Assembly: GCA_026988245.1 (NCBI GenBank)
Contig: JALSLR010000087.1
Coordinates: 1 to 38,239 of the forward strand
Direction: 5' to 3'
DNA length: 38,239 nucleotides
Origin: Sulfurimonas sp.
GTDB taxonomy: Bacteria > Campylobacterota > Campylobacteria > Campylobacterales > Sulfurimonadaceae
Position numbers and translations under genes: made by a program. Each line of letters opens with the position of its first letter. Within the stretch, counting starts at the first letter, position 1. Below, piece after piece: positions 8,064-38,239 of the stretch. The notes beneath the pieces are model-generated. The model ran no database searches, had not been told where the DNA came from, and worked only from the letters and a program-made list of their open reading frames with translations.

Positions 8064-8085
8064 AATTATTTGGTTTTTTATATAA

Positions 8086-8350
8086 GGGCACCTCTAAAAA
8101 CCCTTGTATCCTCAGCATTATAGCAGATATGCTAATACAAGGCGAAAATTCGCAGGAGCTACTAGTAGCTTCAAGAGTTTTTAACGCAGTAGTAGTGTAT
8201 CTGCTATAATGCCCATAGGGAGCCAAAAAGAGAGGCAATCTTGCGTCAAAATTTTTCATCACCGTAGCTATGGCTATGGTTCAAAAAAAGTTTTGCACAA
8301 TCTTACCTCTCTTTTTGGCTCTGAGGATATAAGGGTTTTTAGAGGTGCCC
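8086..8350 (+). mobile_element. MITE-like element, copy 1 (complete, 265 bp)
   Basis: Terminal inverted repeats of 30 bp (8086-8115 and 8321-8350, 29 of 30 matching, ends GGGCACCTCT) enclose two inverted-repeat hairpins. The first has arms 8115-8129 and 8198-8212 and extends imperfectly inwards; the second has arms 8221-8235 and 8306-8320, also extending imperfectly to a short loop near 8270. The element is flanked by ATAA on both sides (8082-8085 and 8351-8354), a likely 4-bp target duplication. It carries no transposase. A near-identical inverted copy begins at 38117. It accounts for most of the gap between the ATPase and the J-domain gene. Confidence 0.85.
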
Positions 8351-8378
8351 ATAATTAAATAAACAATAAAAAATCTGA

Positions 8379-31977: not shown

Positions 31978-32757
31978 ATGCCAATAGTTCAAGAATCTAT
32001 CTCTGAACTTAAAGATATGAAAAAGTATCCAAAAGAGATAAACTACAGAGGAAATTTGGCGTTACTTAAAAAACAAAAAGTAAGTATAGTGGGTACCCGT
32101 CACCCAAATCAATATACAAAAATAATGACGCAAAACTTAGCCTCAAAACTTTCTACAAGTGGTGTTTGTATAGTAAGTGGTGGTGCTATGGGGGTAGATG
32201 CTCTTGCGCATAAATCTGCTGGAGTGGACAATACAATCATGGTAGCTGGAACAGGGATAGATGTAAGGTACCCTAAAATCAATGCTAATCTCATAGAGGA
32301 GATAGAAAAAAGTGGACTCGTTTTGAGTCAGTTTAAGTCTAATACACCCTCTGCAAAGTATAACTTTCCTTTACGAAACGAATTGGTAGTAGCTCTTGGA
32401 AACTTTCTCATAGTAACTCAAGCTGATTTAAAAAGTGGCACTATGAGAAGTGTTGAGTATGCTTTAAAAATGAATAAAAAAATATTTGTTTTACCGCATA
32501 GAATAGGGGAATCTGAAGGGACAAACTCTCTTTTACAAAGTGGTGATGCTACGCCAATATATGATATAAATCATTTTATCAAAGAGTTGTTTGGGATTGC
32601 AAACAGTGATGATGCTAAGGACGATTTTACAAAGTTTTGTTTAAAAAATCCCACTTATGATGAGGCAGTTCGTGCCTACCCTAGTAAGATTTTTGAGGCT
32701 GAATTGAGTGGTGAAATTGAGATTGTTGATGCTAAGGTATATCTCACTACACTTTAG
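31978..32757 (+). CDS. dprA: DNA-processing protein DprA
   Basis: 259 residues, the short epsilonproteobacterial form without a C-terminal winged helix of full size. DprA loads RecA on incoming single-stranded DNA during natural transformation. The Rossmann core is clear: VSIVGTRHPNQYTK, IVSGGAMGVDALAHKSA, MVAGTGIDVRYP and FPLRNELVVAL (usual form FPxRNRiia), then VTQADLKSGTMRSVEYA. It starts immediately after the deacetylase stop. Its end overlaps the convergent GGDEF gene by 11 nt. Confidence 0.94.
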   Translation: MPIVQESISELKDMKKYPKEINYRGNLALLKKQKVSIVGTRHPNQYTKIMTQNLASKLSTSGVCIVSGGAMGVDALAHKSAGVDNTIMVAGTGIDVRYPKINANLIEEIEKSGLVLSQFKSNTPSAKYNFPLRNELVVALGNFLIVTQADLKSGTMRSVEYALKMNKKIFVLPHRIGESEGTNSLLQSGDATPIYDINHFIKELFGIANSDDAKDDFTKFCLKNPTYDEAVRAYPSKIFEAELSGEIEIVDAKVYLTTL

Positions 32758-34372
32758 CAACTACTCTATCTCTACCACTCTCTTTAGCCTCATAGAGTGC
32801 TTCATCAACTCTTTTTAGTAGCGCTTCTTTTTCGCTATGCCCATCACAATGTGTAATCCCGATGCTTACAGTGATATGCTCAACATCTTCAAAATAGTGT
32901 GCTTTGACTTGTTTTCTTAGCTTATCTGCAAGTTTTTGTGCTACGTGTATCTCTTCGTTTGGGATAAGGAGCATAAACTCTTCACCACCCCATCTTCCAA
33001 ACATATCAGTATCTCTAATAGAGCTTGAAATGATTTGGCTAAACTCTTTAAGTACTATATCCCCGATATCATGACCATGAGTGTCATTTACTTTTTTGAA
33101 AAAATCTATGTCAAACATGAGCAGAGAAAAATGTTTATTATAGCGTTTTGCTCTTTTGAGTTCATCTTCTATTGATTTGTTTATGCTGTACCTGTTGGCT
33201 ATACCTGTGAGCGCATCTACAGTAGCTAATGTTTCAAGTTGTTCTTGTAGTTTTACTTCTTTGGTAACATCTTTACTTGTAGAAACATAGTACTCAATCT
33301 CATCTGTATCTTCATTGAGAATAGGTGTGATGGTTTGTTCTTCATCGTAAAGTTCACCATCTTTTTTGGCATTGACAAAGACCCCTTTATAGCTCTTTTT
33401 ATCCTCTATGATATTGTACATTTTTTCATAAAATTTTTTATCATGTTTCTTCGAGTTAAAAATATTATTTTGCTGACCAATGAGCTCCCCTTTTTTATAC
33501 TGAGTATGTTTCGTAAGAGCTTCATTGACATAGGTGATATAACCATCTTTGTCTGTTATACGAACCATCTCATCCATTTGTTCCATAGCTTGTGCTAGAA
33601 GTTTTAACCTCTCCTTGGTGTCAAGTAAGTCCGTGATATCAATAGATGTTCCTATACCTGCATATCCACCTTCATACTCAATAGTATCAGTAGTAACACG
33701 ATGTATTTTAGTATCACCATTTTTGCTAACTATGGGTATCTCATTATGTACCCTCGGGAATTTTTTACCCTCTAGTCTTTGATAGACGATCTCTTTGATT
33801 TTTGTAGTGTTTTGAGCTGAGACTAAAGCCCAACTATCCATAGCATAGAGTTCTTCCTTAGTATAGCCAACCATTTGGCAAAAAACCTCATTTACATAGA
33901 TAAACTTTTCTTTGTAGATAAAGACACCAAGTTGTGATGTTTCTAAAATAATCTTAGATCTTGCTTCACTCTCTTTGAGTTGTTGTTGTGCATGTGTAGC
34001 TTCTAACTCTATGATACATTTGTCTATTTGATTTTTAAGTTTATCGAGGTCTACGGGTTTTGCTATGTAGCCATCTATCTGTAACTCTATAGCCTTAAAG
34101 AGATACTCACTATCGATATGCGCAGTTGTAAAGATGACAAGCTGTGCAGGATTGATTTTTTTTATCTCTTGGACCATATCGATGCCATTGAGCTTTGGCA
34201 TTTTTATGTCAGATATTACGATGTCGATATGGTTTTGTTTATATAGTTCTAATCCCTCTTGACCATCGTGAGCAAGGAAGATATTTTTGCAAAATCTAGC
34301 TATAAATTTGCTAAGCATCTCTCTTATATTGTTTTCATCTTCCACATAGAGTATTGATAAGTTATTTTTCAT
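32747..34372 (-). CDS. Response regulator diguanylate cyclase (REC-PAS-PAS-GGDEF)
   Basis: 541 residues from the ATG at 34372; an earlier ATG at 34399 would add nine residues without the usual REC opening. REC (about 1-115) has YVEDE, phospho-acceptor Asp in VISDIKMPKLNG and TAHIDSE with Lys in YIAKPVD. Two PAS domains follow (about 135-250 and 260-375). The GGDEF domain has LTGIANR, FDIDFFKKVNDTHGHDIGD and an active GGEEF (462-466) with the inhibitory RxxD motif (RDTD) five residues before it. It makes cyclic di-GMP from GTP, probably after phosphorylation by the kinase encoded just upstream, with which it overlaps by 11 nt. Confidence 0.9.
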   Translation of the reverse strand: MKNNLSILYVEDENNIREMLSKFIARFCKNIFLAHDGQEGLELYKQNHIDIVISDIKMPKLNGIDMVQEIKKINPAQLVIFTTAHIDSEYLFKAIELQIDGYIAKPVDLDKLKNQIDKCIIELEATHAQQQLKESEARSKIILETSQLGVFIYKEKFIYVNEVFCQMVGYTKEELYAMDSWALVSAQNTTKIKEIVYQRLEGKKFPRVHNEIPIVSKNGDTKIHRVTTDTIEYEGGYAGIGTSIDITDLLDTKERLKLLAQAMEQMDEMVRITDKDGYITYVNEALTKHTQYKKGELIGQQNNIFNSKKHDKKFYEKMYNIIEDKKSYKGVFVNAKKDGELYDEEQTITPILNEDTDEIEYYVSTSKDVTKEVKLQEQLETLATVDALTGIANRYSINKSIEDELKRAKRYNKHFSLLMFDIDFFKKVNDTHGHDIGDIVLKEFSQIISSSIRDTDMFGRWGGEEFMLLIPNEEIHVAQKLADKLRKQVKAHYFEDVEHITVSIGITHCDGHSEKEALLKRVDEALYEAKESGRDRVVAKV

Positions 34373-36311
34373 TAAAGTCCATCCTAAATTCCACTCCATC
34401 TTCGGTATTGTGTACGCTGAGTTTTGCGTCCATATTTTCTTCTATAATTATCTTAGACATATAAAGACCCATCCCTGTGCCTTTACCTTGTTCTTTTGTG
34501 GTAAAGTAAGGTTCAAAGATTCTATCCATAATCTCTTTATCTATACCACCCGCATTATCTCTTACTGAGATAATATTATCTTGCATATCTATAAATATCT
34601 TGGCATTTGGTATATTGTTGTCAATGAGCGCATCTTTTGAATTGTTGATAAGATTGAGTAGAACTTGTTGAAATTCATTTTTATAACCATCTATCTCAAA
34701 ACTTTCTTCACTTATAAATACAGATATATTGTGGTTGATAAGTTGTGCCATTTGAAGGGAAAGTGTGTTCTTTATAGCTTTTTTGGCATCAAAAATCTCT
34801 TTTGTTTTATCAATTCTGTAAAAATTTCTAAAATCATCTATAGTAGTTGACATAAAATGAACGACTTTTTTATTTTGTGCTATAAACTTATCTAAAAACT
34901 TATCATCTATGAGCCCATCTTCGTAGTCATATTTTAAGTTTTGTATAGATATGCTTATCTCATTGAGTGGTTGTCTCCATTGGTGAGCTATAGCCCCAAT
35001 CATTTCACCCATAGAGGCCATTTTATTTTGTTGTTGGAGTATCTCTAGTTGTTGTATATTTTCACTTGTTTTTTCCTCTACGATATTTTCTAAGTTTTCA
35101 TTGAGCAGTTGGAGTTCTTTTGTTCTTTCATTAACTTGTAGTTGCACCTCTTTTTTAGAATCCTCAAGCTTTTTAATCATTGTTTTTAAAGAGCGTGAGA
35201 GGTCGCCTATCTCATCACTACTATCAGATGTGACGAACTCTACCGTAGCATCATCATCTGCAGAACTTATCTCTTTTGCCTTATTTGTGAGATGTATAAT
35301 AGGGCTGATGAGAATCTTAATAACTATAAGAGAGACAAGGGCTATAAAAACAGTAATAATAAAAATGTATACAATGAGAGTTTTAAAATACCCATTTGAT
35401 TGTTGATGTAAAAATTTGTCTGTAGTAGTTATAGCAATAAAAATACTGCGATCTTTTGTAAGGGGCATTTTTGAGTAAGCAAATGCAATGCTTTTGTTGA
35501 AATAAGATTTTTTATTGAGTTCGAAATCATTTGTGAATTTATCATGAGTATTGAGCTCAAAACCAAAAGTTTTTTCTTTATTTGGATGGTAAAGATAGTA
35601 ACCTTCTTGATTTGCAATATATATCTGCTTGTCATCTGCAATGAGATTTTTTATAGGTAAAAAAAGTTTGTAAATATTTGCGTTGATGATAATAATAGCA
35701 AATATTTTGTTGTTGAAGTATACGGGCAATGCTACTCTTATGGTTGGTATATAGGGAATAGAAAGTTTTCCGTACTCACGGTTGAGTTCTATCTTAGATA
35801 TATATATATCATTTTCAGCTAGTTGTATAGCTTTTTTAAAATAGTCTCGATTTGCTTTGTTTTGTAATAGGGTCTCTTTTTGTATGCTTACTTTTCCTTT
35901 AGCATCTTTTACGCTTACAACAAGTTCTTCTCCCTTTGCATCTATGAGTCTAATGTTAAAGTATGCATCGTTATGCTCTAAAATAGACTTCATTGTTTGC
36001 GCTAGTTTGTATTTGAGTGATGGTAGTGTTTCATTTGTCACTTCATCATAATGATATTTATTGGAAGTTGCACGATAAAGAGCAGATATGTTTTCATTGT
36101 TTATAAGTAGAGTTACATCTTTTTTTACACTTGCTAAGTTCTGCTCTATCGCTTTTGTATGCTCTATAAGCTCAGATTCAAGAGATGTTAATACATTTTG
36201 CTTGATATAAGAGCGAATTTGAGTGTAGGATAAAACAGATATAAGCAAAACACCAAAACCTGAAGCAACAAAAATAGCTATTGCAACTTTTAAGGAGAGA
36301 CTAATCCTCAT
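34362..36311 (-). CDS. Sensor histidine kinase with periplasmic dCache-type domain
   Basis: 649 residues. TM1 (about 7-29), a periplasmic double-Cache-like region (30-308) with RLIDAKGEELV, NRDYFKKAI and RVALPVYFNNKIFAIIIIN, TM2 (309-335), HAMP (336-390), a coiled coil, then the kinase core: phosphorylated His443 in AHQWRQPLNE, N-box LLNLINNSKDAL, G1 VRDNAGGI, F-box FEPYFTTK and G2 GKGTGMGLYM. Cache domains usually bind small molecules such as amino or carboxylic acids. It overlaps the repeat-protein gene before it by 11 nt and the cyclase gene after it by 11 nt, so the three are one translational unit. Confidence 0.92.
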   Translation of the reverse strand: MRISLSLKVAIAIFVASGFGVLLISVLSYTQIRSYIKQNVLTSLESELIEHTKAIEQNLASVKKDVTLLINNENISALYRATSNKYHYDEVTNETLPSLKYKLAQTMKSILEHNDAYFNIRLIDAKGEELVVSVKDAKGKVSIQKETLLQNKANRDYFKKAIQLAENDIYISKIELNREYGKLSIPYIPTIRVALPVYFNNKIFAIIIINANIYKLFLPIKNLIADDKQIYIANQEGYYLYHPNKEKTFGFELNTHDKFTNDFELNKKSYFNKSIAFAYSKMPLTKDRSIFIAITTTDKFLHQQSNGYFKTLIVYIFIITVFIALVSLIVIKILISPIIHLTNKAKEISSADDDATVEFVTSDSSDEIGDLSRSLKTMIKKLEDSKKEVQLQVNERTKELQLLNENLENIVEEKTSENIQQLEILQQQNKMASMGEMIGAIAHQWRQPLNEISISIQNLKYDYEDGLIDDKFLDKFIAQNKKVVHFMSTTIDDFRNFYRIDKTKEIFDAKKAIKNTLSLQMAQLINHNISVFISEESFEIDGYKNEFQQVLLNLINNSKDALIDNNIPNAKIFIDMQDNIISVRDNAGGIDKEIMDRIFEPYFTTKEQGKGTGMGLYMSKIIIEENMDAKLSVHNTEDGVEFRMDFNEK

Positions 36312-38058
36312 AATTACTATCTTTGAAAATATTTGAGATGATTTTTATTGTGTCATCTACTGTTTCATAAACATCCGATGGTGTTTTGTTTTTGACATTC
36401 AATATATCTTTATAGGGTGGTTCTATGCTGTAATGTACTTCTATTTCTGATAGCGTAGCACTGACAAGTCTAAGTGCATTGTAGACTGATGTAGGCGTTT
36501 TGATTTTCTCGTTTGGTAGGATTATTTTTACAGACTTAAAGTTTCCTCTCTCTTTTACATCTTGTAAAAGTTCAAGAAGTTGTATAGATTTTTGAAAAAC
36601 ATCACTAGGTTTTTTTGATTTTACATGGGTAGGAATTACTTTTATATTTTTTCCTATTAAAAATTTTTCTAGAAGTTTTATCTCGTTTTGTATTTTTTTT
36701 GCTAGTATGTATGTCTCATTTGGGGTATAGTCTTGGTTGAGTATCGCATCTAGTTCATAAGATATTTTCCACAAATTATTATAGGCATCAGAAGGTGTTT
36801 TATCAGTAAAATATTTTTTATTTGAAAGAGCCCTGTATGCGCTAAGTTTAAAACTATCTTTGTAGATAAGATTGAGCTCATCATCGAGTCTCAATATAAG
36901 TTCATAGACCTCACTAGGGGTTATCTTAGTACTAGGTGATTGTGGTACCTGAGATGGTTTGAAGCCTTCTAACATTTTAAGTTTTGCTATTTTTTCTAAA
37001 CTTTCTATCCCCTTTTCGTAGACATGGATAGGTTCTAAGCCATAGAGGTAAGTGGTCTCTTTTGCTTTAAGATGTATCCCTTTTTTTGCTTTTATAGTAG
37101 TAATCTTATCAAGTATGTAACTACTCAGAGCAAAAACATCATTTGGGGTTTTTAGTAGGGATTGTTTTGGATACTGGTTTAAAGGTGTTTCAAGAGAAAA
37201 AGAAGGCATTAAAGCTATGGCATATTCTAGATTTTGAACAACATCTGATGGTGTTTTTCTCTCTTTTATCTCTTGAGGTACGAAAGATTTTTCTATACCA
37301 ACTCTTCTTGCTATTCTATTTATTTCTGCTTTAACAGTTTGTAATGCATCATACACCTCTGTTGGAGATATCACTTTTTGTTCGATTTTTGGAACTGGAG
37401 TTGTTGTCATCCAGAGTAATTTTTCAACATTGGAAATTTTTTGCAAAAGTTCTATTGATTTATAAAGTGCATGATTTGGATGTAGATTTTTTTTGAGTTT
37501 TGGCATTGGCACTAAGTTATTAGAGTGTTGAGAATCACGCAAAAGCATGATGGTGTCTATAATCTGTGTTGTTTGTGCATATACATCTGTTGGGGTAAAT
37601 CCTTGTCCTATGAGAGCATCAAATCCCAAAGATATTGTCCACAACTGTGTATATACATCACTTGGTGTTTTGTTTGTGTACATTTTTGCTTTATGAAATA
37701 TATGTTTACCCTTTATAAGGTAAGCAACTTCTTCCCTTAGTCTTTGGACATTGTAATACACATCTTGAGGGGTGATCTTTCTTGCTGGAACTGGTGGAAT
37801 GGTTATGCGTCCATATCCATTGAGTTCTCGATATTTATTTACTTTTGTGAGTATTTCAAGTGTCTTTTGTATAACATGGCGTGGTGACTTATTGGCTTGG
37901 TACTGAACTTTTTTTAGTGGTGTAGTGATATCATTTTGTTTTCTTAGTAAAACGATAGCTTCTTTGAGTACCATAGACTGTGAATAAACATCAGAGGGTG
38001 TTTTAACCTTGGCTTGCAACAAGATACTTACAAAAAGTACAAATACAATATATCTCAC
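36301..38058 (-). CDS. Exported TPSDVY-repeat protein of unknown family
   Basis: 585 residues from a GTG start (AAAGGA 8 nt upstream). Signal peptide 1-16, cut after LLQA. The whole mature protein is built from sixteen motifs of the form (T/S)P-S-D-V-Y, starting at residues 20, 58, 96, 131, 155, 193, 231, 269, 304, 342, 380, 421, 445, 483, 521 and 559. Most are 38 apart. Motifs 9-16 repeat motifs 1-8 with an offset of 284 then 290 residues. Each unit looks like two amphipathic helices with a Pro-rich link. I know no named family. It is first in an operon with a histidine kinase and a diguanylate cyclase. Confidence 0.85.
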   Translation of the reverse strand: MRYIVFVLFVSILLQAKVKTPSDVYSQSMVLKEAIVLLRKQNDITTPLKKVQYQANKSPRHVIQKTLEILTKVNKYRELNGYGRITIPPVPARKITPQDVYYNVQRLREEVAYLIKGKHIFHKAKMYTNKTPSDVYTQLWTISLGFDALIGQGFTPTDVYAQTTQIIDTIMLLRDSQHSNNLVPMPKLKKNLHPNHALYKSIELLQKISNVEKLLWMTTTPVPKIEQKVISPTEVYDALQTVKAEINRIARRVGIEKSFVPQEIKERKTPSDVVQNLEYAIALMPSFSLETPLNQYPKQSLLKTPNDVFALSSYILDKITTIKAKKGIHLKAKETTYLYGLEPIHVYEKGIESLEKIAKLKMLEGFKPSQVPQSPSTKITPSEVYELILRLDDELNLIYKDSFKLSAYRALSNKKYFTDKTPSDAYNNLWKISYELDAILNQDYTPNETYILAKKIQNEIKLLEKFLIGKNIKVIPTHVKSKKPSDVFQKSIQLLELLQDVKERGNFKSVKIILPNEKIKTPTSVYNALRLVSATLSEIEVHYSIEPPYKDILNVKNKTPSDVYETVDDTIKIISNIFKDSNYED

Positions 38059-38116
38059 ATAGAATCCTTTTAGTTGTATCTATATTATGATACATAATAT
38101 ATTAAATAATGTTTAA

Positions 38117-38239
38117 GGGCACCTCTAAAAACCCTTATACCCTCAGAGCCAAAAAGAGAGGTAAGATTGTGCAAAACTTTTTTTGAACCATAGCCATAGC
38201 TACGGTGATGAAAAATTTTGACGCAAGATTGCCTCTCTT
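38117..38239 (-). mobile_element. MITE-like element, copy 2 (cut by the window edge)
   Basis: The first 123 nt match the reverse complement of 8228-8350 at 122 of 123 positions: terminal repeat GGGCACCTCT, then the second hairpin almost to its end. So it lies inverted relative to copy 1. It begins 58 nt upstream of the TPSDVY-repeat gene start. The flank before it reads TTTAA; the other flank is outside the window, so no target duplication can be tested. Confidence 0.85.

Follow-up and report, generated by a model that had tools for sequence, protein, structure and literature searches.

Along the minus strand of the window (the whole stretch analysed here, 38,239 nucleotides of Sulfurimonas sp. 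contig JALSLR010000087.1), a gene for a protein with sixteen similar sequence motifs runs directly into the gene for a membrane histidine kinase. What kind of protein do these motifs build, and what might it do for the kinase encoded beside it?

A repeat protein of two eight-motif blocks

The repeat gene (36301..38058, minus strand) started with GTG, with a ribosome-binding site read in the sequence AAAGGA directly 5′ of this codon, and encoded 585 amino acids. Homologues were found in other genomes, and the gene was present as a single copy in the window's genome. A promoter scan 5′ of the gene yielded one weak site, no more than expected by chance, and an Rfam search returned nothing. Based on sequence and alignment, the first 16 residues or so (MRYIVFVLFVSILLQA; 38011..38058, minus strand) look like a cleavable signal peptide. 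Ala16 was invariant in the alignment of close homologues, and signal-like N-termini were recognised in many family members, by eye and with hydropathy. The protein thus looks exported, which is consistent with the periplasmic location proposed in an earlier note on this DNA.

The motif class [TSKHE]-P-x-x-[VATH]-[YVFIL] occurred 16 times in the protein, starting at residues 20, 58, 96, 131, 155, 193, 231, 269, 304, 342, 380, 421, 445, 483, 521 and 559. The open reading frame and all sixteen positions were exactly as the earlier note had listed them. In 20,000 shuffled versions of the protein, the same class was found 0.83 times on average and at most 6 times. Only 8 occurrences fitted the stricter pattern TP-x-[DE]-V-[YVF], so TPSDVY is a consensus and does not represent sixteen identical copies. 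No mention of TPSDVY was found in the papers searched.

In a self-comparison of the protein (mean BLOSUM62 score), offsets of 290 and 284 residues scored +0.55 and +0.10, respectively, while the best offset among 200 shuffles scored −0.22. An offset of 38 alone scored −0.31, not above the shuffle maximum. The two halves of the protein aligned end to end, with 30% identity over 271 amino acids (E 3e-38), and the units LWTISLGFDALI and LWKISYELDAIL, previously described as a matching pair, were visible as such in this alignment. The halves correspond to an N-block with motifs 1–8 (residues 18–303; 37150..38007, minus strand) and a second, more diverged C-block with motifs 9–16 (residues 304–585; 36304..37149, minus strand). 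The N-block was delimited with a structural model of a lone block and a full match to the single-block profile, and the C-block with the model, the profile, the tree described below and the alignment of the halves. The proposed duplication of an eight-unit block was therefore borne out by the offsets, by the alignment of the halves and by the separation of N- and C-blocks into two clean groups in the tree.

Predicted fold and searches for known families

The AlphaFold2 model of the whole protein (19 homologues; pLDDT 87, pTM 0.85) contained sixteen helices of approximately 20 residues, each starting at the proline of a motif, as the earlier note had anticipated. The helices were mostly joined by extended linkers of approximately 17 residues, with short turns of five residues after helices 4 and 12. 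When one block was modelled alone, the same helices were obtained (pLDDT 90.8, pTM 0.83). Since the lone block folded with the same helices and a high pLDDT, each block is likely an autonomous eight-helix domain of approximately 290 amino acids. Both models consisted of helices without strands, and in both a unit comprised one helix, not a helix pair. The alpha-solenoid suggested earlier was not supported, because each unit has just one helix, followed by a long stretch of extended linker, and the block invariably occurs as the same complete eight-helix domain. The repeat family resembles the alpha-solenoids of TPR, Sel1 and HEAT proteins in its tandem helical units of approximately 38 residues. 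It differs from them in the single helix per unit with its long extended linker, in having exactly eight units per block and in the absence of a profile or fold match.

Sequence searches gave no match to a Pfam, NCBIfam or PDB family; the Pfam and NCBIfam searches covered the window protein and 40 members of its family and included the TPR, Sel1, HEAT and CpxP profiles and, in Pfam, those of solute-binding proteins. The view that the motif belongs to no known repeat family therefore stood, as no profile of a named repeat family matched. The Pfam profile PexRD54_WY aligned with 17 residues of the window protein (E 0.0034) and appeared in 4 of the 40 members, below the cut-off, and was regarded as a chance match on helical sequence. 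The remaining Pfam, NCBIfam and PDB sequence matches were sub-threshold or unrelated and were taken in the same way.

A Foldseek search against 350,542 PDB chains gave no significant match for the whole protein (best E 0.1) or for one block (best E 0.51), with TM-scores <0.2, and no significant match was obtained among viral models (BFVD; best E 1.1). The best VIA-align Z-scores were 4.4 and 5.0, mostly with long-helix bundles of the fumarase/argininosuccinate-lyase type over approximately 100 residues. These scores are low even for helical proteins, and an absent match does not prove a new fold; judged from the models, the fold of the repeat protein is likely, but not proven, to be new.

Spread of the family and its receptor neighbours

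Double-block proteins (approximately 580–640 amino acids) were found in Sulfurimonas, other Campylobacterales, Gammaproteobacteria, Magnetococcales and a Desulfobacteraceae bin, and single-block proteins (approximately 300–350 amino acids) in Campylobacterota and Pseudomonadota. The family was thus not confined to Campylobacterota, contrary to the earlier expectation. In evenly drawn samples, 397 genomes from the window's phylum yielded 11 with the family, among them the one containing the window; it was present in 29 of 299 genomes from the phylum of a Magnetococcales genome and in 17 of 229 genomes from the class of a Gammaproteobacteria genome, where a few were short, weak matches. For the phylum of the Desulfobacteraceae genome, the seed genome was the only one of 148. 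Phage and plasmid collections contained no match to the repeat protein. A match of 110 residues (E 8e-4) inside an unrelated 736-aa frame (genome G018, locus L016) was dismissed as chance.

Nearly all intact members spanned the entire 297-position profile, once or twice, which indicates that the eight-motif block, and not one repeat alone, is the unit of evolution. A tree of 93 blocks, constructed with a short search and no bootstrap, placed the N-blocks in one group (SH-aLRT 100) and the C-blocks in another (SH-aLRT 98). The double form therefore most likely arose once, and all double-block proteins would trace to a single duplication that preceded their spread over the phyla.

Three polar residues were among the most conserved positions across single and N-blocks. 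Arg60, at the start of helix 2 (37879..37881, minus strand), was kept in 68 of 73 single and N-blocks and was usually replaced by Ile in C-blocks. Glu245 in helix 7 (37324..37326, minus strand) was kept in 69 of 74 and lost in C-blocks to Thr or other residues, and Gln275 in helix 8 (37234..37236, minus strand) was kept in 66 of 73, with variable residues in C-blocks. The C-blocks kept the prolines, Lys72, Lys130 and Asp147. The retention of the polar residues in N-blocks and their loss from C-blocks suggest that the N-block retains an ancestral, putative binding face and that the C-block took on another role.

The partner kinase (34362..36311, minus strand) was composed, according to Pfam, of a transmembrane segment, a periplasmic dCache-type sensor (PF21623), a second transmembrane segment, HAMP, HisKA and HATPase; a kinase in the operon had been foreseen. 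The first 11 bp of the kinase gene overlapped the end of the repeat gene. The kinase gene in turn overlapped by 38 bp a gene encoding a response regulator–PAS–PAS–GGDEF protein, a diguanylate cyclase by Pfam (32747..34399, minus strand). The kinase was the only PF21623 protein found in the window's genome and adjoined that genome's single repeat gene. Elsewhere in the window, a MITE-like element of approximately 270 bp, with terminal inverted repeats of approximately 30 bp and two inner palindromes, was located at 8083–8354, and the contig ended inside another copy (about 38115–38239), which folded far better than shuffles (z −6.7). The genome contained 25 pieces matching the element.

Across the family, a signalling receptor was adjacent on the same strand in 73 of 77 distinct genes, although these counts are not independent since the genes share ancestry. 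Nearly all receptors had transmembrane segments. The median spacing between repeat gene and receptor was −1 bp, and 67 of the 73 pairs overlapped or were separated by ≤20 bp. As a control, a receptor neighbour followed 10 of 732 other genes of the same stretches. The four exceptions were one gene at a contig end (L037) and three without a receptor neighbour (L076, L155 and L160). Contrary to the earlier prediction, the partners were not restricted to kinases; they comprised histidine kinases, hybrid kinases (in many cases with a CheB–CheR fusion encoded next), MCPs, GGDEF or GGDEF-EAL proteins and one SpoIIE phosphatase; these output categories were assigned automatically and are approximate (the nearest receptor of L139 is an MCP 11 bp upstream). 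The PF21623/dCache sensor was present in the window's kinase and in 7 of the 10 first partners scanned, and most receptors share it. In a distant subfamily, the partners were MCPs with four-helix-bundle or unrecognised sensors, not dCache. Among 60 relatives, every sensor homologue with at least 37% identity over most of the domain adjoined a double-block gene.

Several further arrangements were observed. In two loci (L117, 3608–11339; L067, 6263–11440), hybrid kinases were encoded beside single-block genes and followed by a fused CheB–CheR protein, and in several genomes a gene for a membrane protein (with CHASE3 in L117) stood in front of such clusters. This group is a conserved signalling cluster. 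At locus L064 (4187–12266), two distinct single-block genes lay in tandem; behind each of them was the gene for a PAS or GGDEF membrane protein of its own. Genome G446, a single contig, encoded one kinase-linked and one MCP-linked copy (L111, L130). Genome G047 encoded a double-block gene with several eroded motifs and no receptor neighbour (L076, 4575–6284), as well as a dCache kinase without an adjoining repeat gene (L143, 4608–6445). Of the kinases unlinked to a repeat gene, it had the sensor most similar to the one in the window, and the two genes are possibly separated partners. Upstream of the same repeat gene, a gyrA-like gene (L076, 1–4379) seems to hold an in-frame intein-like insert (after ...SARIVGD, 'CLVAGSLVSTKRGLVAIEDVEVGDEVFTQKG').

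The divergence of the repeat block was compared with that of both halves of the kinase in a mirror-tree analysis of 48 repeat–kinase pairs, with distances taken as raw identities among genes of shared ancestry. The correlation was 0.86 with the sensor domain and 0.64 with the kinase core. With the kinase core controlled for, the partial correlation with the sensor was 0.76, a value reached by none of 1000 permutations; with the sensor controlled for, that with the kinase core was 0.09. Within single-block pairs alone, the partial correlations were 0.69 (sensor) and 0.45 (kinase), and within double-block pairs alone 0.56 and 0.50. The smaller excess for the sensor within each set indicates that the co-divergence signal is strongest between subfamilies. 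Taken together with the changing outputs, co-divergence with the sensor points to contact between the repeat protein and the periplasmic half of the receptor.

A putative periplasmic input subunit

We propose, with a probability of roughly 0.72, that the repeat protein is a secreted periplasmic co-receptor, that is, an input subunit, of the kinase encoded by the overlapping gene. The proposal builds on the sequence family, the predicted fold, the duplication, the gene linkage and the co-divergence with the sensor, from which we infer export, physical docking, ligand binding and the direction of signalling. The repeat protein would be made together with the kinase, exported and docked on the kinase's periplasmic dCache-type sensor. 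Ligand binding, or occlusion, probably at the conserved face of the N-block with Arg60, Glu245 and Gln275, would alter the engagement of the sensor, and the signal would then travel via HAMP and the kinase to the response regulator–diguanylate cyclase, with c-di-GMP as the output. Subunits of this kind in other genomes would connect to hybrid kinases, chemoreceptors, GGDEF-EAL enzymes or SpoIIE phosphatases. A single mode of docking cannot account for all pairs, as the distant subfamily is paired with four-helix-bundle MCPs. The 'binding scaffold' of the earlier note is more fittingly described as a periplasmic co-receptor for the membrane receptor encoded next to it.

A membrane histidine kinase can also be controlled by a helical periplasmic protein, as ExoS is by ExoR (a Sel1-repeat protein) and CpxA by CpxP (of the LTXXQ type). 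The repeat family is likewise a helical, putatively periplasmic protein paired with a membrane histidine kinase; it differs in that its 40 searched members matched no Sel1, TPR or CpxP profile. The strongest competitor of the co-receptor reading, which we consider unlikely, is negative regulation of the kind exerted by ExoR or CpxP. The repeat protein would then hold the receptor off and be released or degraded on envelope stress, carrying no small ligand. The same gene placement and co-divergence would fit, as would the all-helical predicted fold, and ExoR and CpxP are indeed periplasmic accessory proteins of kinases (PMC6978683). However, a polar set kept in single and N-blocks and lost in C-blocks suits a binding site, and graded sensing fits better than release under stress with partners such as chemoreceptors and c-di-GMP enzymes.

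A structural or assembly factor appears improbable. Such a periplasmic scaffold would dimerise, cluster or localise the receptor, for instance by tying it to the cell wall or outer membrane, and would take no part in sensing. A helical domain that was duplicated and resembles no known catalytic or binding fold would suit this role, but many receptors with related sensors have no repeat protein and manage without it, and no wall-binding or membrane-anchoring domain was found with Pfam in the window protein and 40 members. Finally, an independent periplasmic function, such as that of a carrier or chaperone under the control of a receptor with which it merely shares an operon, would account for the three family genes without a receptor but is very improbable, given that the tight linkage persists while the output type of the partner varies and that the divergence tracks the receptor's periplasmic half.

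The proposed co-receptor can be compared with known two-part sensors. Solute-binding proteins are two-lobed alpha/beta proteins. They are covered by 45 Pfam profiles and can feed kinases, chemoreceptors and c-di-GMP enzymes alike (PMC9602780); the membrane receptor LuxQ, with its PDC/dCache sensor, is fed by the separate periplasmic protein LuxP (PMC8534201). The family shares with these systems the combination of a separate, here predicted, periplasmic protein and a membrane receptor with a dCache sensor. Unlike LuxP and the solute-binding proteins, it is all-helical in the models, has no two-lobed alpha/beta fold and has no Pfam match. In the co-component systems VtrA/VtrC and ToxR/ToxS, a membrane signalling protein and a periplasmic partner, encoded by genes that overlap or adjoin, together form one sensor (PMC9214523), an arrangement similar to the overlap in the window and the adjacency throughout the family. 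The co-component partner (VtrA/VtrC) has a lipocalin-like beta fold, in contrast to the all-helical models of the repeat protein, and the co-component receptor is a membrane-anchored HTH transcription factor, whereas the receptors of the repeat family are histidine kinases, hybrid kinases, MCPs, GGDEF-EAL proteins or SpoIIE proteins. By analogy, these comparisons point to a family that works like LuxP with LuxQ or the VtrA/VtrC partner, yet belongs to neither by profile or fold. No helical periplasmic co-sensor resembling the repeat protein was found in the literature.

We judge the odds to be about even that the family represents a widespread, undescribed class of periplasmic co-receptors. 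These would have a new all-helical fold of eight single-helix units with Thr/Ser-Pro caps and would act as an interchangeable input to kinases, chemoreceptors, c-di-GMP enzymes and phosphatases; a single duplication would have produced the two-domain form, which occurs in several phyla. For many bacterial receptors whose sensor is of the dCache or four-helix kind, no ligand is known. If it is true that such receptors read the outside via a co-encoded subunit, screens with isolated sensors would miss the signal. The repeat family shows one putative input subunit re-wired to unrelated outputs, with a predicted fold that appears new. As a profile-less family in sulfur-oxidising Campylobacterota, Gammaproteobacteria and magnetotactic bacteria, it would offer a direct handle on these signals, with the receptor and its neighbour taken together.
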